A stretch of DNA of 21,989 nt. Origin: a virus. The stretch is from IMG/VR virus record IMGVR_UViG_3300023295_000015, positions 1-21,989 of that record. One strand, given 5' to 3'. The notes beneath the pieces are model-generated. The model was not told the origin of the DNA. It saw only the letters and a program-made list of their open reading frames with translations, and did not search any database. Shown piece by piece: positions 9,106 to 21,875 of the stretch. The translations under genes were made by a program, and so were the position numbers. The first letter of the stretch is position 1. Every line of letters starts with the position of its first letter.

Positions 9106-10083
9106 CTAAGTAGCCTGGATGGCTTCTCCGCCATTCACAGCATTTGCAGCACCACTCGCATTGTATATGCCAGTAGCATTAGCAAAATCATCCGCACCGA
9201 TAATCGTGCAATCCTTTAACAGAATATATCCGACTGTTAAGGAAGCAGCAGCTGTCAATCCATTCGCCATTGACGCAGCAGCTAACTTTGTGTTGAAGAA
9301 TAAGCAGTCTTTGAACAACAACATTCTTTCAACGTCAGCAGCACCAGCCGAGTGAATAAAACTATTAGCAACCTCGCCAGCATTTCTCCAGAAGAAACAA
9401 TCCTTAAAGGTTACATCTCTGCAAGACTTACCAGAAATTGTTCCTGTGGTTAGCAACACACAAGGTCTTGCCCCTGTTGCTGTGATTGCATTAGCGTTTG
9501 ACCCGATTGTGCAACCTTCATACTTGGAACTATCACCATTACAAAGAAGTTCAGCAGCGTCGTCCTCGTCTAAATCAGTTGATTTGTAGAACTCACAATT
9601 CGTAAACTGTGTATATTCTCCACCATCTGCAACTGTATAAAGACTTGCGGCAACTGTGCTTGAACTATCAAACTTGATATTGGTAAAAGAAACAGCTTGT
9701 CCTGTAACCTGAACAAGTGCAATATCGGCAGCAGTAGTAGAATCACCCATTGTAATTCTTGCTCTTTGACCATAATATTTACCACCAACATCAGCACCAA
9801 GAAAATGAACCTTCCTCTTTGTAACACTTAGCATAGAGGTTAGAGCATGACCTTCAGGAGCAAGAATAATAACATCATTCCTGTTCGTTACGGTCTGTGC
9901 ATAAGCGGCAGCAAGTGTTAGAAATAAATCTCCGGCTGGAACTTCATTACTCCAACGATCATACAATGGAGATGTGGAAGGGCATACATACAAAATTCTA
10001 CCCATTCCCGGTCCAACTCCGCCACCTGCAATCTTTGAAAGTGAAATCGCTGCGTCTGGAGCTACGTTTCTATTTTTTATCAT
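9106..10083 (-). CDS. Beta-helix-like structural protein downstream of capsid gene
   Basis: 325 aa; ATG with AAGGGGG eight nt upstream. The N-terminus NRNVAPDAAISLSKIAGGG resembles the 'aaAaIalSKia' segment of phage fibre and decoration proteins. Residues about 60-310 contain repeating short strands ending in Asn/Asp/Cys turns (VSFTNIKFDSS, YTQFTNCEFYKS, CRDVTFKDCFFWRN, RMLLFKDCLFFNT, GYILLKDCTIIGA), the ladder pattern of right-handed parallel beta-helices. Five of the rungs carry FKDC/TNC-type turns in register. No catalytic lyase residues can be named. Being the first gene after the capsid gene, a head decoration or tailspike-like part is plausible. The role is inferred. Confidence 0.68.
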   Translation of the reverse strand: MIKNRNVAPDAAISLSKIAGGGVGPGMGRILYVCPSTSPLYDRWSNEVPAGDLFLTLAAAYAQTVTNRNDVIILAPEGHALTSMLSVTKRKVHFLGADVGGKYYGQRARITMGDSTTAADIALVQVTGQAVSFTNIKFDSSSTVAASLYTVADGGEYTQFTNCEFYKSTDLDEDDAAELLCNGDSSKYEGCTIGSNANAITATGARPCVLLTTGTISGKSCRDVTFKDCFFWRNAGEVANSFIHSAGAADVERMLLFKDCLFFNTKLAAASMANGLTAAASLTVGYILLKDCTIIGADDFANATGIYNASGAANAVNGGEAIQAT

Positions 10084-10108
10084 CTTAGTTTCCCCCTTAT
10101 AGTTTCCC

Positions 10109-10124
10109 CTCTACTTTAGTAGAG
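10109..10124 (-). other. Short hairpin after the capsid gene (6-bp stem, TAAA loop)
   Basis: The transcript reads CTCTAC-TAAA-GTAGAG followed by GGGGAAAC, so it folds as a compact hairpin but has no U-run. It is 25 nt upstream of the ATG of the beta-helix gene and just before its purine-rich ribosome site, so it could tune initiation there. Confidence 0.55.
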
Positions 10125-10130
10125 ATACTT

Positions 10131-10156
10131 GACGGTTTTTAACTATAAGAACCGCC
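10131..10156 (-). other. Hairpin 16-42 nt after the capsid stop (7-bp stem)
   Basis: GGCGGTT pairs with AACCGTC (one G-U) around a 12-nt loop on the transcribed strand. No U-tract follows. With the next hairpin it forms a two-stem spacer between the major capsid gene and the gene after it, where differential mRNA stability would make sense. Confidence 0.5.
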
Positions 10157-10172
10157 AAACTTATTGATACTA

Positions 10173-11489
10173 TTAAGCTGGTTGTCCGGCTTCAATATCA
10201 GTTAATCGTCCGTTTTGGTTTCGGGCAGTAACCGCAAACTGTGAATACCAGTAAAGGATTGCCTCATAAGCGTCCTCACCAGATACACGAGAAAGGATTG
10301 CTCCGTCTTTGTCCATCCAGTCCCAATTACTTTCTTCAAACAACGTCAAGGATTTCATTGTAAGGAAATACATATCATCCCTTGTGCAATCTGAATCAGT
10401 AACAACTGGAATACCGTTGAAATCAACAGAAGTATAACCACCTTTTAACTTTGTAGTCAAAAAGCGTTTATCTGCTCTAAGCAAGCTAACTAATTGTCTG
10501 CGAATAGCTCTGGTTGTGATAATCAAATCACAATTACCGCCATTATCAGCAATATCGTCAACTACTTCGTCCATAAGATCTTCGGTCAATGCTCTGCGAG
10601 TAGGAGCAACTTTACCAGAAACCCTTGGAGTTCCGGATTCCTTAACAACAGCTTTCCATTCTGGATAAGAATTGATGTCTACTAATCCTAGAGTGTAGTT
10701 GCCAGCAGGAGTTCCATCTTGGTTCCACCAATCAGCGTCCTCAGGACAGTTTCCATCATCCACAAGCAAACGCAAACCATTAAGTTCCTTAGAACTCGTG
10801 TCGTCATTTGATCCAGAAGCAGCATACATGGAACCATAAGCTCCTAGTAAATCTCCTGTAACCGCACTTGTGAAAACACTTCCATCAAAAGGAACAGATG
10901 TGTTAGTAGCAGTTCCGTTGACAGCACAAGCGGTTGCACCATCAGCAGGTCTGAGCGTAGAATAATCGTCAACAGTCAACATTTGAATTGGTCTGTTATC
11001 AGGCAAGTATTTACTTGCGTCGTGATATAAACCCATAACGGTTAAAGGAGTAGTAACAGTATCACTGTTATTAACAGCTAACGCACCAGTAGAATCACTA
11101 AACAACTGTCTGTTTACGTCTTTTTTAACGTCTAAAACTAAACCTTTGATGTTAGCGTCAACTGCTTTAGCGAAAGCACCTTTGTCGTTCTTAGAGGCTT
11201 GGATTGTAGGACCAGTAACTTTCAGGCGACCATAGTTATATTTCATCTTCCATTTGGAAGCAACATAACCTTGCTGCCCTGCGGTTGGAAGTGTGCCACC
11301 ATCAGCCCTGGCACCAGTTCCGTTGTTCCTACTCATGTGCAAAGGAATTACTCCGTATTTACCAGAGATGTCCTTAGAATTGCGAGATACCTTTTCAAGA
11401 AGTATCTTTTCTTGACTTAACTGTTCTCGAATCGGTCCTACATAGACTTCTTTAAGAACAGCGTCAAAGTTTGACATATTTTGAGCCAT
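10173..11489 (-). CDS. Major capsid protein
   Basis: 438 aa; ATG with AGGAGG about 8 nt upstream. The N-terminal segment (FDAVLKEVYVGPIREQL, then KILLEKVSRN) followed by GKYGVIPLHMSRNNGTGAR and LPTAGQQGY is the pattern of a HK97-fold capsid family common in environmental podovirus-like and siphovirus-like phages. In that family a flexible N-arm leads to a Gly/Arg-rich loop. The run VTGPTIQASKNDKGAFAKAV matches the next conserved helix. Length is normal. It lies immediately after the scaffold gene, the usual order. No protease gene is seen, so maturation may rely on the separate scaffold rather than on delta-domain cleavage. Capsid identity is firm; the exact fold is recalled, not modelled. 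Confidence 0.88.
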   Translation of the reverse strand: MAQNMSNFDAVLKEVYVGPIREQLSQEKILLEKVSRNSKDISGKYGVIPLHMSRNNGTGARADGGTLPTAGQQGYVASKWKMKYNYGRLKVTGPTIQASKNDKGAFAKAVDANIKGLVLDVKKDVNRQLFSDSTGALAVNNSDTVTTPLTVMGLYHDASKYLPDNRPIQMLTVDDYSTLRPADGATACAVNGTATNTSVPFDGSVFTSAVTGDLLGAYGSMYAASGSNDDTSSKELNGLRLLVDDGNCPEDADWWNQDGTPAGNYTLGLVDINSYPEWKAVVKESGTPRVSGKVAPTRRALTEDLMDEVVDDIADNGGNCDLIITTRAIRRQLVSLLRADKRFLTTKLKGGYTSVDFNGIPVVTDSDCTRDDMYFLTMKSLTLFEESNWDWMDKDGAILSRVSGEDAYEAILYWYSQFAVTARNQNGRLTDIEAGQPA

Positions 11490-11501
11490 TATAATTTCCT
11501 C

Positions 11502-12290
11502 CTAGTTTTGATTAGCAAGGAACTCAGTTGCAGCGTCAAGAGTGTTCTCACCTAGAACGACCTTTCCTGCCTTGGGTGCGGTAACTGTTCCACCGGCTCC
11601 CTCAGCTCCACGTTTTGCTCTCTTTTCAGCCTCGTCCAGATAATTCTTTTGCCAAGTAGCTCTCACTTCAAGTTCTTTCTTGTGAGAGGCTTCGGCAAGA
11701 GCCATAATATCTGCGTCTGGTCTGAACCTTAGAGTAGCAAAAATACTATCGTCATTCATCAGCTCGAATTTATCCTTAGCTTCAGCTAGTCGCTTACTGA
11801 GATCTTTCTGGATTGTAGTAACCTCACGTTCAAACTTCTCCTTCGTTTGGATTGCTGTTAGTTCATCAACCTTTCTAGCAACTTTTGTGAACTCATCTTC
11901 CTCCTCAATTTCTTGATTAGGATTAGTAGGGTCAACAGCAGGAACAGGAGCCGGTTTGGTTTGGTTATCCGCAAGCCATTTCTCAACAGAAGCATTTGCT
12001 AACTCATTCGCCTTGGATTCCACGTCTTGATTATACTGTCCAACTTTCTGAGCATAGTGTCTACCTTGCTGTGCGTAATCCAACACTTTACTCAACGGAA
12101 GGCTCTCCTCTTTCCCATCAACTTTCAGCGTGTGCATGGCTTCTGCTGGAGTTGCTGGTTCCGGGGTCGGTTCTTCCAATTTAGGTGTAACTTCAGGATC
12201 TACAACAGGTTCAGGATTGGTTGCTACTGGAGCAACTTCTGTTCCAAGTGGATCTTGATTCGTTACTTCTGCTTCTACTTCTAATACCAT
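11502..12290 (-). CDS. Capsid scaffolding protein
   Basis: 262 aa; ATG with AGGAGG five nt upstream. The N-terminal 50 residues are acidic and Pro-rich (PEPVVDPEVTPKLEEPTPEP). They are followed by TLKVDGKEESLPLSKVLDYA and QQGRHYAQKVGQY (about 54-86), the 'v.vdGke..v.l.el...aqkG..y..k' module seen at the start of many phage scaffolds. A long charged coiled coil fills residues 85-235 and a short basic C-terminal segment ends the protein, fit for capsid binding. It is encoded directly upstream of the capsid gene, as scaffolds usually are. It would act inside the procapsid and leave before DNA entry. Confidence 0.82.
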   Translation of the reverse strand: MVLEVEAEVTNQDPLGTEVAPVATNPEPVVDPEVTPKLEEPTPEPATPAEAMHTLKVDGKEESLPLSKVLDYAQQGRHYAQKVGQYNQDVESKANELANASVEKWLADNQTKPAPVPAVDPTNPNQEIEEEDEFTKVARKVDELTAIQTKEKFEREVTTIQKDLSKRLAEAKDKFELMNDDSIFATLRFRPDADIMALAEASHKKELEVRATWQKNYLDEAEKRAKRGAEGAGGTVTAPKAGKVVLGENTLDAATEFLANQN

Positions 12291-12339
12291 TTTTTCCTCC
12301 TAGACAACTTATTCAATTAAGAACATTAGTTGTATGAAA

Positions 12340-12750
12340 CTACTGAACTGGCGGAACTCCTGTTCCTTGTGCTGGCGTTCCTCGATTCTGTCCTTCCTGT
12401 GGAGTGCCTCTCATCTGTCCAGGTTGACCCGGTGCCGGTTGTCCTGGCTGTGGTTGCCCACCTCCTTGAACTGATTGCTTGATTTCCTCGATAACAGCTT
12501 GAACTTGACCAACAACTTGTGCCAACTTATCTGCTTCTGCTTTGTGTCCCATCATTCCCATTCTCGAAGCAACTGCATTGAGCAAATTGATTGCTGTAAC
12601 TGCTGGAGCTTGCTGCTTGCCACCAGGTTGACCAGGCTGACCGCCAGCGTTAGCTCCTGGAGCTTGCGGAGCTTGAGCTGGAGCAGGTTGTTGATTTTGT
12701 GCCGGAGCTTGCTGTAATCGCCCTATTGCCTCTTGTTGCGGATTCATCAT
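12340..12750 (-). CDS. P/Q/G-rich virion-region protein
   Basis: 136 aa; ATG-ATG start with GGAGGG upstream. Both ends are low complexity: residues 1-50 are Gln/Pro/Ala-rich (QAPAQNQQPAPAQAPQAPG) and residues 96-136 Gly/Gln/Pro-rich (QPQPGQPAPGQPGQMRGTPQ). The centre (about 51-93) is one amphipathic helical pair (AINLLNAVASRMGMMGHKAE, then ADKLAQVVGQVQAVIEEIK). Such proteins occur between portal and scaffold genes in several environmental phages, with unknown function. The composition resembles the portal protein C-terminus (PAEPAPGQAPEAPGGQPEQ), which may point to a shared origin or partner. Confidence 0.65.
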   Translation of the reverse strand: MMNPQQEAIGRLQQAPAQNQQPAPAQAPQAPGANAGGQPGQPGGKQQAPAVTAINLLNAVASRMGMMGHKAEADKLAQVVGQVQAVIEEIKQSVQGGGQPQPGQPAPGQPGQMRGTPQEGQNRGTPAQGTGVPPVQ

Positions 12751-12769
12751 TTATACTTCCCTCCTTTTT

Positions 12770-12979
12770 TTAATTGCTACTCGTAACTTTAATTCCCAAA
12801 ACTTTTGGGTAATCAGTTAGTAAGGCTTCCATTGGAACTATCGGATTCTTTTGAACGTCGTTCATAAAGAACATCACCGGGTCATGCTCCAAGGCATTAC
12901 AAGCCGGGCAACCTTTAATCATGGTGCTTTTCTCGTAAACACGCCCACACTTCAAACATCTTAACTTAGTTGTGTTCAT
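12770..12979 (-). CDS. Small zinc-ribbon protein
   Basis: 69 aa with two CxxC knuckles, C8-L-K-C11 and C24-P-A-C27, separated by 12 residues: a classic four-cysteine zinc ribbon. The remaining 40 residues are not recognised. Its ATG overlaps the TGA of the portal gene (ATGA), so it is translationally coupled to the portal. Zinc ribbons of this size are seen near phage head genes but have no settled role. Confidence 0.72.
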   Translation of the reverse strand: MNTTKLRCLKCGRVYEKSTMIKGCPACNALEHDPVMFFMNDVQKNPIVPMEALLTDYPKVLGIKVTSSN

Positions 12980-14955
12980 TGTTCTGGTTGACCTCCGGGA
13001 GCTTCCGGGGCTTGCCCAGGAGCCGGTTCAGCCGGTTGAATGAAATCTATATGTTCCTGTCTGTGTTTAATCATTTCATTCTTCATATCTTCGCTGAGTT
13101 GACCAAACTCCTCTGTTTTCATAAATGCGTCATGCGTATCAACGTGAACTTCATGTCCTTGATACGGTCTAACAATAGCAGTAATATTTCTCTTAAAACC
13201 ATCATTCTCAATCTGTGCTTCCATCCTGTCTGCTCCTTCTTCCTCATAAAGCTCGTCAACATTACCAACTTCAAGCAATCTCATTAGCTTTTTGTTCGTC
13301 TTAGGGTCGTCTTTAGCACCTAACGCTCCAATCTTATACAAATCAAGGTAAAATGCTTGCTGCCCGGACTTGGTTCTTGCCATAGCTGATCCAGCTTCAA
13401 CAATAATCCTTCCACCTTTAGGAATCGTGCCTTCCTCTGTAACCTCTCCATTTTCACCAACAACATTAGGTTTGAAGGTTAAAGTTCTAGGTTTGCCGGA
13501 ATATTTACCTGTAATAAAGAATACTCGTTCTTCTGTGTAATTCTGAGCTGCAATAGACAACATCATGTTGCCAACCTTCTCCAAAGCTCGTTCATAGTTA
13601 GCTGTTATATCTCCAACAATCGTATCATCTGATTCTTGCAGATAGTTGATAGCAACACCTGATGTTACACCAGCCGGGACATTACCCTTTGAAATCTCAT
13701 GCTGTGAGGTTATATTCTGATAATCTCGTTGGTAGATATTGTCTAATCCACTTATAACATAAGTTGGTATCGTTGGCGGAACTAACCAGCCAGGTTTATG
13801 ACCGGCAGTAGTAGTTGGATCCCATTCCACGTTCTCACCCGGCTCAGAAGTGATATTATCCACTCCGCAACCTTTAGGTTTCAAGAACTTAGGCTTGGAA
13901 GTCAAGCGTTCACTCTCTCGAATATGTGAAATGAGTTCGTTCTTAGCCTTCTGAATAGGTATCTCATCCTCAATGTTTGACCTACCAAGAATCCTACCAG
14001 CCATCTTGAAGTCATAAAGCGGAACGAATGGTAGGAACGGTTCCTCGCTGTCATTCCAAGAGTAAGGTAGGTTGTTTTTCTCCAACAATTTCTTGTTAGC
14101 AACTACAATCTTTTTACCTTTAGGGAATTGTTTACATGGTTTAACCCATAATTCCTTAACAATAGCTGAGTTATCAGACGTTTCTACCTGAGATATTCCT
14201 CCATCATCTGTTCCGGCTCCAACCATGCCTTGAATCTTACGCCAAAAGCTGTTAGATACGCTCTCATCCTTCTCAGCCTGAACTTCTCCACCATTCTCAG
14301 GGTATCTTTCAACGATATAATCAAGAGTTCTTGCTCTGGAGTGTAGAATCTTTCTTAAATCTTTCCATTTACGAGCGTCAAAAGGATCAAGTATAATCTC
14401 AAATGGCGAACAAGCCTCAAGCTGTATTTCTCCATCACTCCAAGTTTGTCCATCTTCCGAAGCTCTTTTCTTGCCAAGCGTAGGATTATAAAACACTTTC
14501 ATAAATCCTGTGCCGCAAGAACAACCATACTTCAACCATTCGTCTAGCTCACCTTCAACGTCAATTACCGGACTTGACCACCAAGCCTCGATTAACTCGT
14601 TGCTTTCCTTCATCTTCTTTTCTGATTCAATATCAGTCTTACCTGCTGAGATGTAAAGCGTAGGGCGTTTCTTCTTTAACTTGGCAACCTTCTTGCGGAA
14701 CGTAGGCATAATATCATTGGCAACGTGTCTAACTCTCCAGTTTGGAACTTTTGGTTCATACAATCTCTTGAGCCGGTTATCCCATTTAACCCATTGCTGA
14801 CCGCTTAGAAAGGCTATGTTCATATACCATTGACGTTCGAAAACATACTTCTTGCTGTTTAACTCGTAAACATCACCAACCATCTGAACATAATCTTCAT
14901 CCTGCATTTCTTCTTCAGTCTTGCCTTCATACAGCTTTTTGTTGTTATTTACCAT
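12976..14955 (-). CDS. Portal protein
   Basis: 659 aa, long enough for a podovirus-type portal. The N-terminal stretch (KKYVFERQWYMNIAFLSGQQ, then WVKWDNRLKRLY) is the conserved opening helix of the portal family, in which 'r...f......n..fl.G.qw..w' is usual. The core contains EACSPFEIILDPFDARKWKD, followed by LRKILHSRARTLDYIVERYP, the clip and wing region of this family. The C-terminus ends in a Pro/Gly-rich tail. It follows the large terminase and a 74-aa gene and overlaps both neighbours by stop-start fusion. It forms the dodecameric DNA gate at the capsid vertex in known phages. Confidence 0.88.
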   Translation of the reverse strand: MVNNNKKLYEGKTEEEMQDEDYVQMVGDVYELNSKKYVFERQWYMNIAFLSGQQWVKWDNRLKRLYEPKVPNWRVRHVANDIMPTFRKKVAKLKKKRPTLYISAGKTDIESEKKMKESNELIEAWWSSPVIDVEGELDEWLKYGCSCGTGFMKVFYNPTLGKKRASEDGQTWSDGEIQLEACSPFEIILDPFDARKWKDLRKILHSRARTLDYIVERYPENGGEVQAEKDESVSNSFWRKIQGMVGAGTDDGGISQVETSDNSAIVKELWVKPCKQFPKGKKIVVANKKLLEKNNLPYSWNDSEEPFLPFVPLYDFKMAGRILGRSNIEDEIPIQKAKNELISHIRESERLTSKPKFLKPKGCGVDNITSEPGENVEWDPTTTAGHKPGWLVPPTIPTYVISGLDNIYQRDYQNITSQHEISKGNVPAGVTSGVAINYLQESDDTIVGDITANYERALEKVGNMMLSIAAQNYTEERVFFITGKYSGKPRTLTFKPNVVGENGEVTEEGTIPKGGRIIVEAGSAMARTKSGQQAFYLDLYKIGALGAKDDPKTNKKLMRLLEVGNVDELYEEEGADRMEAQIENDGFKRNITAIVRPYQGHEVHVDTHDAFMKTEEFGQLSEDMKNEMIKHRQEHIDFIQPAEPAPGQAPEAPGGQPEQ

Positions 14956-15179
14956 TAGCTAACCTCTTTTTGTGGGGTTATTCCCTGTCTTTTACAGTAG
15001 ATTTCATACTCTGAACGATCACTCATTGACTGCGGTTCCTCTGTTTCACTCTTATCCTTTATTGCTTTATATTCGCCTAATCCTCTTGACATAACTCTGT
15101 CCATCAAGTCTTTAATAATAACCATCTGAAAGATTATAACTACGATACAAGTGCCGAAAGATATTGCTAGGTAAATCAT
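14955..15179 (-). CDS. Small membrane protein between terminase and portal
   Basis: 74 aa. Residues 2-22 (IYLAISFGTCIVVIIFQMVI) form one membrane helix, followed by a cytoplasmic helix DLMDRVMSRGLGEYKAIK. The 'kdL.dR.M.r...eYk' motif is shared by small proteins found at the same place, between terL and portal genes, in many environmental phages; none has a known function. The gene starts at the TAATG junction with the terminase stop and ends at the TAATG junction with the portal start. Confidence 0.7.
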   Translation of the reverse strand: MIYLAISFGTCIVVIIFQMVIIKDLMDRVMSRGLGEYKAIKDKSETEEPQSMSDRSEYEIYCKRQGITPQKEVS

Positions 15180-16624
15180 TAGTCGTTATCCACCTTTTGA
15201 GTATGTCTTTTCTCCATGTCCCGGATATGTTCTCTACGTCTTTGCTCCATGTTATCAACATGAACTGCTTCGGTTGGTTTCTTGTAGTTGGTTGGCATAC
15301 TGACCAGGTAATATCTTAAATCCATAAGTGCGTGATCCTCTCCGCCTTCTTTAACAATGAACGAATTGTTCTTATCAAAGATTGCTGCTGGTATCTGCGA
15401 CAACAACTTGGTGTTATTGCTGCCAATTTGGTGATAAGGTTTACCATCCGGGGCAATCCTAAACCAGTTTCGCATAGCTTGATAGCCATTCTTACGGTCA
15501 TTATTAGCTGGAATGAAGTCAACTCCGTTATCGTGGAACTCTCTGATAACGCTGGTTCCTTCGCCTTCTGCTTCCTTGCGAATAGGTGTTCTATTCCTGC
15601 ATGAAGGGTCAATATATCTAGCTTTAACCTTAATCTCCATATTCTTCTCAAGGGCTTTAATGTCTTTTGACCATTGATCCGGGTATTTCTTGTTGCCATA
15701 CAGCTCTGCGATAGTAAAACTACGCATGAAAGTAACCTCTGGCATAACAACCTTTCTTACTGCGTGAAGGTGATACGAGAAGGAATCAGGGTCAAAGCCC
15801 CAGTCTGCACTTCCGTAAAACTCGTCTAGCTCGTTAAACTCATAAGCAGGTATAATATGCGTGGATTTGTTCCACTCTGTGAAGAATTGACCTTTGAATA
15901 CGTCCCAATCTCCATTCCTAAACGCTTTTCTAAGGTTCTCCGGCAAGCTGTCCAAGGTTTTAATATAGCTTTTAGCCAAGTAAGGATTATCACTTGCAAG
16001 TGCCTGGATAAAGCCAAACAGCTCTGCTTCCTGTTCGTTCTCATCAAATTGGCGATCAATGAACATACCTCTGACCCAAGCATGACCAATATCTCCAGGG
16101 TTTGTTCCAGCTATGAACTTACAATCTTCAATGCCTGTCCAGCGTAGTCGTGTTCGTAGAAAGAAGAATGTTTCTTGTTCGTTCTTTGTTAGCTCATCAA
16201 CAGCGATAATAGCAAACTCTGCTGATTGATACTTACTGACATCATCAAGGTTTCTAAAACAGATAACGCCTGAGCCATACTCCGGAGCAAGGGTAAATTC
16301 GTTATCACTTTTGTTTAACTTACCAAGCCAATCAGGGAACTCATATTGAACTTTGCTGAGGTGTCTGTCCTTCAAAGCCGGATAATCTTCACAAAACAAG
16401 CCCACACGAACCCCTCTAAAGCCTTTTTTCGCCCACTTGAGCAATCGTAGCAGTAACATCCAACGTAGCCAATAGCTTTTACCGCCGCCCATAGCTCCAC
16501 CGTAAAGAAGGAACTTAAACTTGTCTAGCATATTCTTTGCCTGGCGTTGTTTGTCTGTGAAGTTAGCCAATTCACTAAACTTAATTGGTTCTTTTATCTG
16601 ATCTTGTTCTATTACTTCACTCAT
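15179..16624 (-). CDS. terL: Terminase large subunit (DNA packaging ATPase and nuclease)
   Basis: 481 aa. The Walker A is GGAMGGGKS (42-50), the Walker B AIIAVDE with D143-E144, and the coupling motif AGTNPG (172-177). The RNase H-type nuclease half has the acidic residue D274 in SADWGFDPDS, D339 in YIDPSCRN, and D430/D435 in the typical DHALMDLRY ending. All catalytic residues expected for the two activities are present, so the protein looks functional. It sits between the small terminase candidate (8-nt overlap at the start) and the portal module. It drives genome packaging into the procapsid and cuts concatemers. Confidence 0.95.
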   Translation of the reverse strand: MSEVIEQDQIKEPIKFSELANFTDKQRQAKNMLDKFKFLLYGGAMGGGKSYWLRWMLLLRLLKWAKKGFRGVRVGLFCEDYPALKDRHLSKVQYEFPDWLGKLNKSDNEFTLAPEYGSGVICFRNLDDVSKYQSAEFAIIAVDELTKNEQETFFFLRTRLRWTGIEDCKFIAGTNPGDIGHAWVRGMFIDRQFDENEQEAELFGFIQALASDNPYLAKSYIKTLDSLPENLRKAFRNGDWDVFKGQFFTEWNKSTHIIPAYEFNELDEFYGSADWGFDPDSFSYHLHAVRKVVMPEVTFMRSFTIAELYGNKKYPDQWSKDIKALEKNMEIKVKARYIDPSCRNRTPIRKEAEGEGTSVIREFHDNGVDFIPANNDRKNGYQAMRNWFRIAPDGKPYHQIGSNNTKLLSQIPAAIFDKNNSFIVKEGGEDHALMDLRYYLVSMPTNYKKPTEAVHVDNMEQRRREHIRDMEKRHTQKVDND

Positions 16625-16871
16625 CTATGAGGATTACCTGTTTGGATAGAACGTCTGCAATTATTGTTTGAGGAGCTTTGCCGGCAAGTTGTTCGATAAT
16701 AAATTTAGCAGCGTCAAACTTCGTAGAGGATTGCATTGTATCTTCCATAACATCAAGAGCCTTGTCTAAGGCTTTGGTTTTATCAGCCCATTCTTCAAGT
16801 TTCTTTCTAAACTTTGAAGGCGGTCTGCCATTAGTATTACCGTTCCACTTATTACCTTTTACAAATACCAT
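16617..16871 (-). CDS. Small terminase subunit candidate
   Basis: 84 aa. The N-terminus KGNKWNGNTNGRPPSKFRKK has the 'GN...N..GRP.s' signature of a phage packaging-associated DNA-binding protein class, and the rest is helical (LDKALDVMEDTMQSSTKFDA, AKFIIEQLAGKAPQ). It directly precedes terL and overlaps it by 8 nt. The length is short for TerS, so only the DNA-binding part may be present. The ATG has no Shine-Dalgarno site within 15 nt, unlike nearly all neighbours; an in-frame TAA lies three codons upstream, so no earlier start exists. Confidence 0.65.
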   Translation of the reverse strand: MVFVKGNKWNGNTNGRPPSKFRKKLEEWADKTKALDKALDVMEDTMQSSTKFDAAKFIIEQLAGKAPQTIIADVLSKQVILIDE

Positions 16872-16973
16872 AGTTGTTTATAGTTTTACTATCCTGTTTG
16901 ATAGGTAATTACATAGCTGTAACCTTCTATAATACACAACTACAACGAGAAGTGGTTAAGTATGAGGGAATAT
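16872..16973 (-). promoter_or_regulatory. 102-nt untranslated gap before the packaging genes; possible late promoter region
   Basis: No ORF with a ribosome site is seen here, in a genome that otherwise overlaps its genes. On the minus strand it holds a TATTAT (about 16929-16934) and a TATAAA starting 11 nt upstream of the ATG at 16871, but no convincing TTGACA partner at 16-18 nt. A small stem (CTATC, six-nt loop, GATAG) lies near 16895, and an 8-nt palindrome GTAATTAC next to it. The place, just before terminase genes and after a sigma-like gene, is where late promoters usually sit. The promoter itself is inferred. Confidence 0.35.
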
Positions 16974-17234
16974 TTAGTTTATAGTTCTTTTGTCGTCGGT
17001 TTCTTCTCTCATTAAAAAAGTTGTTAAACTTAATTTAACTCGGTGTTCCAGGTATGATAAGTTTAAGGGCTTTTTCTTCGTAGTTTTTAATTTCTTTAAG
17101 ATTAAGAATCCTTCCTGGACAAGATCTTCTGCTTCGTAGTTGCTGTATTTGAATTTGAGAAGTAGGTGATTAGATATTTTAACAAGGCTCGGTTCAATCT
17201 TGGACCATATGTTTATGATTCTATCTTTACGCAT
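16974..17234 (-). CDS. Sigma-70 region-2-like mini-protein, possible late-gene activator
   Basis: 86 aa; ATG with AAGGAG seven nt upstream and an 8-nt overlap with the previous gene. Residues about 33-50 (YEAEDLVQEGFLILKKLK) match the core of sigma-70 region 2 ('..DL.QEG.l.L..A'), preceded by a basic helix (LVKISNHLLLKFKY). The expected -10 recognition and melting helix (YLEHRVKLSLTTFLMREE) follows in a reduced form. No region 4 (-35 binding) exists, so it cannot act as a full sigma factor. In many phages a sigma-like or ArpU/RinA-type regulator lies immediately before the terminase genes and turns on late transcription. The same position here suggests that role. Confidence 0.6.
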   Translation of the reverse strand: MRKDRIINIWSKIEPSLVKISNHLLLKFKYSNYEAEDLVQEGFLILKKLKTTKKKPLNLSYLEHRVKLSLTTFLMREETDDKRTIN

Positions 17235-17538
17235 AACAAACTCCTTGTTTTGGGGGAGGATAGGTAATAATATTTCCTAGCTTTCCTCTAGCCATGTAAT
17301 CATTTAGAGCATCTTCGTTCCTTCTTACTTTGTTTATTTTTCTCCAGTAGGAAGATAGCCTAACATCTATCTGCCATTGAGGATTGTGAAACCCACATAA
17401 ACCAGAAGGGATTATTCCTTCATGATAACAAGAGGAACGAGGCAAAACCTGTTCTTTATCATATTCATAGCAATCTAACTTCTCAAACTCCAAATTATCT
17501 GGATCGCTAAAAATATCATCAACAGGGATTGATTTCAT
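17227..17538 (-). CDS. Hypothetical protein with Cys/His cluster
   Basis: 103 aa, not recognised. It starts at an ATG with AAGGAGG upstream. Residues about 34-51 (RSSCYHEGIIPSGLCGFHNP) contain C37, H39, C48 and H51, a possible metal site; C23 precedes it. The middle and C-terminal helices are basic (YWRKINKVRRNEDALNDYMA). It overlaps the sigma-like gene by 8 nt, so the two are probably made together. Confidence 0.6.
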   Translation of the reverse strand: MKSIPVDDIFSDPDNLEFEKLDCYEYDKEQVLPRSSCYHEGIIPSGLCGFHNPQWQIDVRLSSYWRKINKVRRNEDALNDYMARGKLGNIITYPPPKQGVCYA

Positions 17539-17825: not shown

Positions 17826-18064
17826 TACTTCACCTTCAAAATACTATTTACTCCACTCTTTTGCTTGGCAATCTGTTCTCTCTGAGCTTCAACGCCTTTT
17901 TTAGTTTCTTCGTTCTTAGCCCGGAGCTGCTTGGATTTCAAATCTTCTATCTCTGCGTCTTTATGAACAACCAAGGCAACCAACTCTTGCTTCTCTGCTT
18001 CCTTGTCGTTCAGTTGTATCTGAATCGTTACGGTTTTAGGAACTATTACTTCTTCTGCTTTCAT
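17825..18064 (-). CDS. Small coiled-coil protein
   Basis: 79 aa. Residues 18-72 are highly charged and helical (NDKEAEKQELVALVVHKD, LKSKQLRAKNEETKKGVEAQ), a single long coiled coil. The first 16 residues (MKAEEVIVPKTVTIQIQL) form a strand. Start ATG overlaps the TGA of the GroES-like gene (ATGA), with GGAGG about 6 nt upstream. The function is unknown. Coupling to the co-chaperonin gene may mean a linked role. Confidence 0.6.
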   Translation of the reverse strand: MKAEEVIVPKTVTIQIQLNDKEAEKQELVALVVHKDAEIEDLKSKQLRAKNEETKKGVEAQREQIAKQKSGVNSILKVK

Positions 18065-18384
18065 TTTGTTTCCTCCTTTATTACTAATTCAACATCACCC
18101 TGCGTAAGTAGAATAACTGTATTATCAACTGCTTTGACTTTTAACCCGGTGTATCTATGAAAAAGAACGGTGTCGCCTTCCTTCACAATCATTTCTTCTC
18201 TCTTGCCTTCTGCTCCCATCTTGCCCTTCCCGGCTTTAATAACAATCCCGGTAAAGAACTTCTTGGCGTTCTCGGTTGTAGGAGCAATAATTATTCCGGA
18301 TGAAGTTTTCTTTTCTTCTTCAACAGGTCTAACAGCTATGCGATCCCCTAGGAGAGTAAGATTATCTAATTTACTTCTTAGCAT
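18061..18384 (-). CDS. groES: GroES-like co-chaperonin (Cpn10)
   Basis: 107 aa, close to GroES length. LLGDRIAVRPVEEE (11-24) is the first barrel strand pair ('pL.DRvlv....e'). KKTSSGIIIAP (25-35) is the mobile loop that holds the GroEL-binding hydrophobic tripeptide (III here), followed by GIVIKAGKGKMG, the 'G.V...G.G' strand. VKEGDTVLFHRYTGLKV matches 'v..GD.Vlf..y.G..v', and ILLTQGDVELVIKEE the final strand. All core elements are present. No GroEL gene is in the window, so the protein would work with host GroEL, as T4 gp31 does for its capsid. It overlaps the upstream membrane gene by 14 nt; the nearest AAGGAG is 13 nt upstream. Confidence 0.88.
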   Translation of the reverse strand: MLRSKLDNLTLLGDRIAVRPVEEEKKTSSGIIIAPTTENAKKFFTGIVIKAGKGKMGAEGKREEMIVKEGDTVLFHRYTGLKVKAVDNTVILLTQGDVELVIKEETK

Positions 18385-19341: not shown

Positions 19342-19505
19342 TTTCTTATCCCCTTTATCTCAAATCTTTTCAATATATCCTTAGCTAAATCAATCGGTTC
19401 ATCTTCAAGGAAGTTAAACTTGGTTATTATCTCGGTAAGCATAAGTAAGAATACTCTTTCTTTATATTTATCCTCATCTTCTTTTGATGTTATCATTATT
19501 ACCAT
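19338..19505 (-). CDS. Small acidic hypothetical protein (55 aa)
   Basis: ATG at 19505 with GGAGGGGGA just upstream (inside the 21-nt repeat). The product begins MVIMITSKEDEDKYKERVFL and ends DLAKDILKRFEIKGIRK, a helical acidic/basic peptide. Its TGA overlaps the resolvase start (ATGA). No family is recognised; its tight coupling to the resolvase gene is the main clue. Confidence 0.6.
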   Translation of the reverse strand: MVIMITSKEDEDKYKERVFLLMLTEIITKFNFLEDEPIDLAKDILKRFEIKGIRK

Positions 19506-19638
19506 GTTCCCCCTCCTTATCTAGCACTGCCTGGGCTTCCTGAACATCTTCTTCTGTGTATACCTCGCCATCAGACATGAACTTATCGTCTTTACCGTTC
19601 CAATCACTAACTATTTTCATTGCTTCTTCTTTATTCAT
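19474..19638 (-). CDS. Small acidic hypothetical protein (54 aa)
   Basis: ATG at 19638 overlapping the TGA of the upstream 135-aa gene (ATGA), with GGAGGGGGA four nt before. The product begins MNKEEAMKIVSDWNGKDDKF and contains EVYTEEDVQEAQAVLDKEGE. The stretch VLDKEGE is also the end of the upstream 135-aa protein, encoded by a 21-nt perfect repeat. It overlaps the 55-aa gene by 32 nt. Confidence 0.55.
   Translation of the reverse strand: MNKEEAMKIVSDWNGKDDKFMSDGEVYTEEDVQEAQAVLDKEGEHGNNDNIKRR
19508..19528 (-). repeat. 21-nt direct repeat, copy B (gene end plus ribosome site)
   Basis: This 21-nt sequence, beginning AGTGCTAGATAAGG on the minus strand, is identical to 19642-19662. It codes VLDKEGE in the 54-aa gene and ends in the GGAGGGGGA that serves the 55-aa gene. 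Confidence 0.85.
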
Positions 19639-20042
19639 TTCTCCCCCTCCTTATCTAGCACTTGGATTTCAAGTGAAACTATAACATCTTTGTATTCCAA
19701 ATTATTTACATCTTCTGGTAGATAAATAAAACTATTTCCATAAATATCCGAACTAACAGAAGAAGAAAAAACATAATCCCCCTCAGCTTTTTTGAAGTGC
19801 TGGCAGAGATACTTTAACCAGCCCCAAACATAACGAGCATTTAACATTGATTCCCCACAATCTTCAAGTTTATCTCCATCTAGTAAATTAGCTTCAAAAT
19901 CTTTCTTTAATTCATTTTCCCTAAACGATTCAAAAGAATGTGTGGGGACTTCAATAGATATTATATTCATAGTTGTTTTATCTAAGTCAAATTCTTTAGC
20001 TGCTTTATTTAGGTCTTTGAGCAATATATATTCTTCTGCCAT
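19635..20042 (-). CDS. Hypothetical protein after the methyltransferase (135 aa)
   Basis: Not recognised. ATG overlaps the TAA of the methyltransferase gene (TAATG) and has AAGGAG nine nt upstream. The N-terminal 65 residues are acidic and helical; residues 68-100 hold YVWGWLKYLCQHFKKAEGDY, then SSSVSSDIYGNSF, and the end is a strand pair (DVIVSLEIQVLDKEGE). Tryptophan/tyrosine clustering suggests a compact domain. Coupling to the MT-A70 gene is the only functional hint. Confidence 0.6.
   Translation of the reverse strand: MAEEYILLKDLNKAAKEFDLDKTTMNIISIEVPTHSFESFRENELKKDFEANLLDGDKLEDCGESMLNARYVWGWLKYLCQHFKKAEGDYVFSSSVSSDIYGNSFIYLPEDVNNLEYKDVIVSLEIQVLDKEGEK
19642..19662 (-). repeat. 21-nt direct repeat, copy A (gene end plus ribosome site)
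   Basis: Perfect match to 19508-19528. It encodes the VLDKEGE near the C-terminus of the 135-aa protein and contains the ribosome site of the next gene. The copies are 134 nt apart in the same reading frame relative to the ends of the two genes. Confidence 0.85.
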
Positions 20043-20650
20043 TATTTCATCTCCTTAAGTAAATCAATATCGCTTTCAACTTCGTTCCCCCATACATCCC
20101 AGCCTTCTTGTTTTTCTCTGGCAAATAATTCTATACGAGGTAAATCACCAAATAATCTTACAATTTCATTTCTTAAATAACTAGGTTTTGAACTATGTCT
20201 ACCTCTAGGATATATTTGAATTTGTTTTACATTTTTAACCATTCTTTTTGGTGAGCCTTTTTTTGCAAACAAACAAAGTTCTGCATTTCCATTTACCCAA
20301 TGTCCCATTCCACTATAAATACCTCCTTTTATTTCAACATCTGGCATTGTCCTACCTTCTATTTTTTTTTCAATCAATTCTGCATTAGGGTTTATTTTAA
20401 TCCAATTAAATAAACAAGTCTTATAATTAAAACCCCACGCTTTTATAAGCTCTAAGCCCTCTTGTAACATTGGCATTGTAACCCACATACAAAGAACACT
20501 ATCTTTATCAGCAATTTCATTTACTTTAAATCCTTTCATTTCTTTTAATGTGGTTGTTTTATATGTAATTCCTCCCATAGCAGGGTCATTGTTTTTCTTA
20601 TCTTTATAATCCCAAGCTGGGTCTGCGTATATTATTTTATATTTCTTCAT
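20042..20650 (-). CDS. MT-A70 family DNA N6-adenine methyltransferase
   Basis: 202 aa, compact size as in phage MT-A70 enzymes. The catalytic motif is YADPAWDY (D10-P-A-W13), the DPPW-type motif with Ala at the third place. The SAM-binding region follows in GHWVNGNAELCLFAKKG (about 120-136), and RGRHSSKPSYLRNEIVRLFG with RIELFAR (about 150-180) is the conserved end. It would methylate adenine in DNA, probably to evade host restriction. The start has GGAGG ten nt upstream within the 57-nt repeat, and it is preceded by the MKKVWLARDKH micro-ORF. No restriction enzyme is visible, so it looks like an orphan enzyme. Confidence 0.9.
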   Translation of the reverse strand: MKKYKIIYADPAWDYKDKKNNDPAMGGITYKTTTLKEMKGFKVNEIADKDSVLCMWVTMPMLQEGLELIKAWGFNYKTCLFNWIKINPNAELIEKKIEGRTMPDVEIKGGIYSGMGHWVNGNAELCLFAKKGSPKRMVKNVKQIQIYPRGRHSSKPSYLRNEIVRLFGDLPRIELFAREKQEGWDVWGNEVESDIDLLKEMK

Positions 20651-20704
20651 TTCCCATCAACCTCCTTTATGTTTATCCCTCGCCAGCCATACTTTCTTCA
20701 TTGT
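20648..20704 (-). repeat. 57-nt direct repeat, copy 1 (micro-ORF leader before the methyltransferase)
   Basis: This region matches 21265-21321 at 55 of 57 positions, with 36 identical bases at 20669-20704. It begins 3 nt before a micro-ORF ATG and ends exactly at the methyltransferase ATG. Similarity stops right there, so the unit is micro-ORF plus ribosome site plus start codon. Confidence 0.95.
20657..20701 (-). CDS. Micro-ORF MKKVWLARDKHKGG (14 aa)
   Basis: ATG at 20701 overlapping the TGA of the 53-aa gene, with AAGGAG five nt before it. It ends in TGA 7 nt before the methyltransferase ATG; its last codons are the GGAGG of that gene. The start 'KVWLARD' resembles the N-terminus of a small phage protein family ('.vWiARDkdGsLyLf...kP'), from memory, so this could be a truncated remnant or a leader. 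A near-identical 11-codon copy lies at 21283-21318. Confidence 0.5.
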   Translation of the reverse strand: MKKVWLARDKHKGG

Positions 20705-20859
20705 TGCTCCTTAATCCATTTTTTCCAAGCTTCTTGTCTTTCTTCTTCATAAGAGCAACTAGCCATTGCTGGAGCTACACTTTTTCCTGGGGCTAAATAC
20801 CCTGTTTCCTTATAAAATCTTTCAGCTTTTTCCTCAAACAATTCATTTGCAACCCCCAT
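20698..20859 (-). CDS. Small phage protein with FYKETGYLAPGK motif (53 aa)
   Basis: ATG at 20859, AGGGGG ten nt upstream, overlapping the micro-ORF start at its TGA. The sequence ERFYKETGYLAPGKSVAPAM, followed by EEERQEAWKKWIKEQQ, matches a pattern I recall in small phage proteins ('.F...TG..APGK..p........r...W..w'). The function is unknown. It lies between the two 57-nt repeats, next to the YopX gene. Confidence 0.65.
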   Translation of the reverse strand: MGVANELFEEKAERFYKETGYLAPGKSVAPAMASCSYEEERQEAWKKWIKEQQ

Positions 20860-20865
20860 AACTCA

Positions 20866-21267
20866 TTAACCCCCTATGTTTTTAGTTTTGGTTAGAAGCT
20901 CTGGATTATCTGACTCGTTTCCAATTATCTCTAAATCATCTTGCCAATTCAAATGATATTCTTCCACCTTCTCGGTTACAAAATCGCTTCCACGCCTAGT
21001 GTGATCTTCAAGATAAAAACCAACACCCTCATAGCCGCCCTCAAAAAAATTCCTTCCAAATCTTATGACTGCTCTGCAAACAGAATAATATTTAATAATG
21101 TCCCCTTCATAAATCTCTTTGCCATTTTTATCTTTACTACCTATGTATTGCCCTACTGTTTCAAGGTCTACTAATGCCCAGAACCACTCCCACTCATCCA
21201 CATCACGATCAGGAGTTGCATACTGCCAGTGCCCGTTAATTTTTCCCCTAAATTTTATCTCTCTCAT
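20866..21267 (-). CDS. YopX-family phage protein
   Basis: 133 aa. MREIKFRGKINGHWQYA at the start, then VGQYIGSKDKNGKEIYEGDI (about 38-57), WEWFWALVDLE, and the C-terminal EIIGNESDNPELL together match the YopX domain from its first to its last conserved element. The function of the family is unknown; it is common in accessory regions of phages of Firmicutes and others. The gene has GGAGG ten nt upstream in copy 2 of the 57-nt repeat and ends 6 nt before the 53-aa gene. Confidence 0.9.
   Translation of the reverse strand: MREIKFRGKINGHWQYATPDRDVDEWEWFWALVDLETVGQYIGSKDKNGKEIYEGDIIKYYSVCRAVIRFGRNFFEGGYEGVGFYLEDHTRRGSDFVTEKVEEYHLNWQDDLEIIGNESDNPELLTKTKNIGG
20870..20884 (-). repeat. 15-nt direct repeat, copy 1 (TAAAAACATAGGGGG)
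   Basis: Identical to 21861-21875. It holds the end of the YopX gene and the ribosome site (AGGGGG) of the 53-aa gene. Together with the 57-nt and 21-nt pairs it is the third repeat placed on a gene boundary. Confidence 0.7.
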
Positions 21268-21321
21268 TTCCCATCTACCTCCTTAATGTTTATCCCTCGC
21301 CAGCCATACTTTCTTCATTGT
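21265..21321 (-). repeat. 57-nt direct repeat, copy 2 (micro-ORF leader before YopX)
   Basis: Matches 20648-20704 with two substitutions (21276 and 21285). The second turns the AAA codon of the micro-ORF into a TAA stop. It ends exactly at the YopX ATG. The copies are 617 nt apart and flank the YopX plus 53-aa genes. Confidence 0.95.
21283..21318 (-). CDS. Micro-ORF MKKVWLARDKH (11 aa)
   Basis: ATG at 21318 overlapping the TGA of the 45-aa membrane gene, with AAGGAG about 8 nt upstream. TAA ends it at 21283, within the ribosome site region of YopX. Identical to the first 11 codons of the copy at 20657-20701. Confidence 0.5.
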   Translation of the reverse strand: MKKVWLARDKH

Positions 21322-21452
21322 GAGGACTCCTTAATCTTTACTTCTATTCCGTTCAATCCCCACTTTAAGCCAATTCCTAAAAAGTAGCCAAGATAAACAA
21401 GCCCCACCATCAAAAGAATGGTCATGCCAACAATTTGAATATATTCTATCAT
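21315..21452 (-). CDS. Small single-pass membrane protein (45 aa)
   Basis: ATG at 21452 with GGAGG seven nt upstream, overlapping the 54-aa gene's TGA. Residues about 5-29 (IQIVGMTILLMVGLVYLGYF) form a membrane helix, followed by a short tail (KWGLNGIEVKIKESSQ). Its stop overlaps the micro-ORF start (ATGA). No known family; the GxxxG-type spacing (GYFLGIG) may mediate helix packing. Confidence 0.62.
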   Translation of the reverse strand: MIEYIQIVGMTILLMVGLVYLGYFLGIGLKWGLNGIEVKIKESSQ

Positions 21453-21615: not shown

Positions 21616-21855
21616 TTATTGTTCCTTAACTTTTATAAACTCGACAATCTCAGACAACACCTTTAATGTTTTTTTGTCTAGTTTTTCTGCAATATAACAA
21701 TATTGTATGTTCCTGTCTGATTGTTTTAACATACTATCGTTCAACCCTTCACAAAATCCATTTAATAAATCTGACTGACAATTATCATCGGAACAACCAA
21801 TATCGAAACCAATTGAACGAGCCATTTTTTCTACTGAACTAATTATTCTACTCAT
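21616..21855 (-). CDS. Hypothetical small Cys-containing protein (79 aa)
   Basis: ATG at 21855 with AGGGGGAT 3-5 nt before it. The sequence has C21 and C26 in DIGCSDDNCQSDLLNGFCEG, plus a C-terminal helix (EKLDKKTLKVLSEIVEFIKV). No family recognised. It is the first complete gene of the window, just after the Cys-rich partial ORF. Confidence 0.6.
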   Translation of the reverse strand: MSRIISSVEKMARSIGFDIGCSDDNCQSDLLNGFCEGLNDSMLKQSDRNIQYCYIAEKLDKKTLKVLSEIVEFIKVKEQ

Positions 21856-21860
21856 ATCAT

Positions 21861-21875
21861 CCCCCTATGTTTTTA
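21861..21875 (-). repeat. 15-nt direct repeat, copy 2 (TAAAAACATAGGGGG)
   Basis: Identical to 20870-20884; it carries the AGGGGG ribosome site of the 79-aa gene. Confidence 0.7.

Follow-up and report, generated by a model that had tools for sequence, protein, structure and literature searches.

The early-gene cluster of a 21,989-base IMG/VR virus record (the window, meaning the whole stretch of DNA analysed) carries a 58-nt direct repeat, one copy lying before a methyltransferase gene and the other before a YopX gene. Judging from its sequence, this unit is probably a recently duplicated gene boundary which arose through gene exchange and may now act as a strong, perhaps coupled, initiation region. 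The main genes of the window are on the minus strand, and all genes, micro-ORFs, ribosome-binding sites (RBS) and boundary repeats located below are on that strand. They include terminase, portal, major head protein, a GroES-like protein, RusA and small early-type genes. The GroES-like co-chaperonin is phage-encoded and located at 18061-18384 (phrog_3188, E 4e-18). The contig ends (21920-21988) in G+C-rich degenerate tandem repeats of GCCGCACTC units, which differ from the A+T-rich sequence beside them and possibly mark an edge of the assembly or the beginning of a repetitive element.

Copy 1 of the unit (20647-20704) is located directly 5' of the ATG of an MT-A70 family adenine methyltransferase (202 aa, 20042-20650; PF05063, E 6e-26; phrog_359), and copy 2 (21264-21321) directly 5' of the ATG of a YopX family protein (133 aa, 20866-21267; PF09643, E 2e-12; phrog_98); both genes have canonical starts. 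The copies are in direct orientation with a spacing of 617 nt and are identical at 56 of 58 positions, where a preliminary description of this DNA had counted 55 of 57. That description had also excluded random homology and reported a different gene after each copy, and both statements agree with our data: the maximal exact core is 36 nt, whereas after dinucleotide shuffling of the 3-kb region an average of 0.04 exact repeats of at least 15 nt was found, and none of at least 20 nt.

Each copy has the layout SD1, micro-ORF, SD2 and ATG. Micro-ORF 1 (20657-20701) encodes the 14-residue MKKVWLARDKHKGG and stops with TGA; micro-ORF 2 (21283-21318) encodes the 11-residue MKKVWLARDKH and stops with TAA. 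As described before, their starts overlap the stops of the preceding genes, with the sequence CAATGA in both copies. The preceding gene is a 53-aa orphan (20698-20859) in copy 1, for which the search revealed no relatives, and a hydrophobic 45-aa gene without family match (21315-21452) in copy 2. The unit had been regarded as self-contained and 57 nt long; it does end at the next ATG, but upstream the homology passes the micro-ORF ATG, and GATTAAGGAG (SD1) is common to both, a small in-frame indel lying between it and CAATGA. The segment 20705-21321, containing YopX and the 53-aa gene, forms a removable module flanked by the repeat, and recombination between the copies would delete exactly this pair, as had been pointed out. 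The cluster is tightly packed between 17.6 and 21.9 kb, and its largest gaps are the two of 47 nt which are filled by the micro-ORF stubs.

The peptide MKKVWLARDKH corresponds to the N-terminus of a small phage protein family, M..[VI]W[ILV]ARDK[DH]G, whose members mostly have about 60-80 aa. This WxARDK family (L003/L102-L131), which is near phrog_1972 and phrog_22292, occurs in IMG/VR and in Bacteroides and crAss-like phages; tblastn detected relatives of L003 in Bacteroides DAC phages and crAss-like phages. Matches of a degenerate pattern in viral contigs begin with MKMWIARDKHGEIYLYSTKP... (L003) and MWLARDEDGTLVL... (L004). From a five-member alignment, 30 viral and 2 genome loci were recovered, most of them carrying [WY][ILV]ARD among their first eight residues. 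The full pattern of L102-L131 is M..[VI]W[ILV]ARDK[DH]G...LFPEVKWED, and these proteins showed no Pfam match.

With the N-terminal family profile, WLARDKH scored 22.3 bits, 11 bits above the next 7-mer of the window (11.3); the best background value was 15.6 bits among 820,000 7-mers from 80 other phage loci. Furthermore, the full-length family gene L122 carries the identical 16 bases TGGCTGGCGAGGGATA at the corresponding place. From this score and these shared bases, the stub is very probably the 5' end of a WxARDK-type gene, cut after codon 11 and directly before SD2. The G that follows in the family is not in register in the window copies, where K or a stop is found instead, and a full-length body with the C-terminal half [LK][FY]P[ES][VI] is absent, since the ORFs end after 11 or 14 codons. 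The missing body indicates a decapitated gene start, so that by its sequence the stub is a remnant of the family and not a member of it. The idea of a decapitated remnant, raised in the preliminary description, is therefore well supported.

The region contains two other exact repeats of at least 15 nt (21 and 15 nt; 0.04 expected by chance), and both are located at RBSs. The 21-nt repeat AGTGCTAGATAAGGAGGGGGA lies before two adjacent small genes, a 54-aa gene (repeat at 19642-19662, ATG at 19638) and a 55-aa gene (repeat at 19508-19528, ATG at 19505). A single 54-aa gene lies between its copies, and the repeat encodes VLDKEGE within the gene that precedes each start. The 15-nt repeat TAAAAACATAGGGGG lies before the 53-aa gene (repeat at 20870-20884, start 20859) and before a 79-aa gene (repeat at 21861-21875, ATG at 21855), and it alternates with the 58-nt repeat in a C-A-C-A order, as tandem duplication and later gene replacement would leave it. 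With these two, three duplicated gene boundaries are found within the same 2.6 kb.

Start-linked repeats are also a wider feature of YopX-bearing phages, because at 80 other YopX loci both copies were at RBSs for 8 of 207 repeats of at least 16 nt. Random placement would give about 0.5 (the zones make up 4.9% of the sequence), an expectation which shared SD motifs raise somewhat. Those RBS repeats were of 16-24 nt and had no micro-ORF. In another phage (L034, 2586-5233), four genes, YopX among them, are preceded by a start-linked repeat (TAGGTGGTGGAGATTATGA or shorter forms of it), which may be a further instance of start-associated sequences.

We propose the following order of events. A WxARDK-type gene would have been deleted in such a way that its start was joined to SD2, the RBS of the gene that follows, and the resulting unit would consist of the first 11 codons of the deleted gene, its former SD1, and SD2 of the next gene. 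Most likely this boundary was then duplicated when recombination at gene boundaries brought in or exchanged the pair of YopX and the 53-aa gene, a step suggested by the two further RBS-spanning repeats within this early-gene cluster. Today the unit most likely functions as a strong translation initiation region, plausibly by re-initiation through the stub: ribosomes finishing the upstream gene would restart at the ATGA overlap and translate the stub of 11-14 codons, which would keep SD2 open and allow reinitiation at the ATG of MT-A70 or YopX. SD2 would recruit ribosomes directly as well.

The two copies of SD1 (GATTAAGGAG) lie in the last codons of the preceding genes, at 20707-20716 in the 53-aa gene (5 nt to the micro-ORF ATG) and at 21327-21336 in the 45-aa gene (8 nt). 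SD2 is AAGGAGG in both, at 20661-20667 (-14.0 kcal/mol) before MT-A70 and at 21278-21284 (-13.9 kcal/mol) before YopX, each time 10 nt from the ATG. Among the 33 gene starts of the window these two rank first and second in anti-SD pairing, the next being -12.4 kcal/mol. Both copies thus present a bicistronic-leader layout of SD1, short ORF, SD2 and ATG, into which the previously suggested coupling cassette plausibly fits. Some details count against the explanation we prefer. The stub stops are 6 and 18 nt 5' of the ATG and lack the ATGA/TAATG overlap of the tightest coupling, and a spacer of 10 nt between SD2 and the ATG is longish.

SD2 could be sufficient by itself, without coupling. This leads to the reading in which the repeats are a recombination scar alone and the stub is untranslated baggage, which we regard as possible but doubtful. 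The remnant origin of the stub, the strength of SD2 and the nearby RBS repeats without a micro-ORF all agree with it, but both copies have an intact SD1 and an intact overlap of stop and start, which permit translation of the stub. Stub and SD2 together might constitute a portable natural bicistronic leader, copied by the phage before newly acquired early genes so that these are translated strongly and in a coupled manner regardless of their native start regions; we find this unlikely.

Also unlikely is a role of the micro-ORF as a leader peptide under selection, in which its translation, or a signal sensed during translation, would regulate the methyltransferase and YopX jointly. Such a peptide would agree with the separate SD1, with the start overlapping the upstream stop, and with 11 identical residues in both copies. 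The retained stops point in the same direction. Micro-ORF and next gene share one reading frame and are kept apart only by the stop codon of the micro-ORF; both substitutions between the copies fall in the two stop codons, leaving one stop per copy although its position is shifted. Loss of the old stop together with gain of a new one is expected for about 0.8% of random double substitutions, a post hoc figure which is suggestive and not proof. However, with only two substitutions between the copies the peptide identity has no statistical power and selection on the peptide cannot be judged from it, and descent from the WxARDK family already explains the peptide.

No stable RNA fold was found for the two unit copies (z -0.01 and 1.68), the unit had no Rfam match, and the gene strand lacked terminator-like sites. 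The counts of promoter-like and of terminator-like sites were at chance. These results speak against regulation by a leader, and neither a structured regulatory leader nor the leader peptide of the preliminary description gained independent support. A ribosome-mediated attenuator or riboswitch was also considered and rejected, as stable alternative RNA structures and a known family are lacking.

Searches revealed no copy of the unit outside this record in viral contigs, genomes, phage records or plasmids, so its proposed use as a module elsewhere was not borne out. An exact degenerate peptide pattern and a pattern of stub, GGAGG and ATG gave no matches in 2.9 million viral contigs; the latter pattern does match the window itself. 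MKK.W.ARD was absent from 84,980 genomes, blastn of the 58-nt unit against phages and plasmids gave chance-level pieces of 19-27 nt only, and tblastn of the micro-ORF peptide against phages gave no matches. No WxARD stub was detected at 10 loci of MT-A70 relatives or at 80 YopX loci.

Among relatives identified by their terminase, one contig (L005, IMGVR_UViG_3300005936_000519) is 99.5% identical to the window over 7.5 kb (9982-17451), which excludes the repeat region; at this identity it and the window phage are taken as one phage species. Two others (L006 and L007) are 44% identical and are short contigs. The terminase, MT-A70 and 53-aa gene searches found no relative covering the repeat locus, although near-identical records may be missing from the collections searched. 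No relative was found that has a single copy, carries an intact WxARDK gene at this locus or has the unit ahead of a different gene, which counts against the duplicated-boundary explanation.

A binding site for a phage protein, or a dedicated recombination site for swapping accessory genes, is very improbable as the identity of the unit. Its ends at exact gene boundaries, the two-gene module it flanks and the alternation of the 15-nt third repeat with the 58-nt repeat would suit such a site, but no inverted repeat was found in the unit, no second genome with it was obtained, and among the genes scanned no recombinase was recognised except a RusA-type resolvase. Duplication of the 58-nt segment by the assembly is hardly credible: the region is known from a single contig, L005 covering only the part given above, but the copies differ at two positions, each has unique surroundings of its own in which the genes to either side are intact, and their length is below that of the k-mers usual in assembly.

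If the duplicated-boundary explanation is right, the window shows gene exchange in a phage while it is still recent: a single early-gene cluster contains three RBS-spanning repeats, and the gene that was lost can be identified. If coupling is also true, decayed gene starts could naturally supply bicistronic leaders like those which synthetic biologists build. ORFs of 11-14 codons fall under annotation cut-offs and are readily overlooked.

By analogy, the unit resembles the boundary repeats of the mycobacteriophages Island3 and Brujita, the start-associated sequences of mycobacteriophages and synthetic bicistronic leaders. Short conserved sequences at gene junctions have been proposed as places of homologous exchange in phage mosaicism (cited in PMC3029335); unlike in that case, we found no boundary common to the window and a second phage. 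In Island3 and Brujita (mycobacteriophage cluster I), direct repeats of about 50-60 bp at gene boundaries flank a gene absent from the near twin, and general recombination between the repeat copies was proposed (PMC3029335). The repeat of the window is similarly a direct repeat of comparable length at gene boundaries, and this parallel, together with the two adjacent RBS repeats, supports the recombination boundary suggested in the preliminary description. However, the Island3/Brujita repeat is located at gene 3' ends, whereas the window unit is composed of a gene 5' stub and an RBS ending at the next ATG; the former flanks one gene which the twin lacks, the latter flanks two, and no single-copy twin was found.

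Of the SAS/ESAS elements of cluster K mycobacteriophages, SAS has a 13-bp consensus, GGGATAGGAGCCC, and 11-19 copies per genome (PMC3203893). Like the window unit, these elements are AGGAG-containing repeats directly upstream of the ATGs of unrelated genes and are confined to the non-structural region. The window unit differs in its length of 58 nt, its micro-ORF and its sequence, which does not match the consensus GGGATAGGAGCCC, and in having two copies in the record, whose genome is possibly incomplete, instead of 11-19.

In the bicistronic design (BCD), SD1 is followed by a leader of less than 20 aa, by SD2 at or in the 3' end of the leader, and by the target gene (PMC5995908, after Mutalik et al. 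2013). The stop of the BCD leader is at the ATG with a 1-bp shift, whereas the stop in the window unit precedes the ATG by 6 or 18 nt and shares its frame. The window unit is natural and would come from a decayed gene, and its likeness in coupling is one of layout; it contains SD1, a short leader ORF, SD2 and the target gene in the same order as the engineered design.
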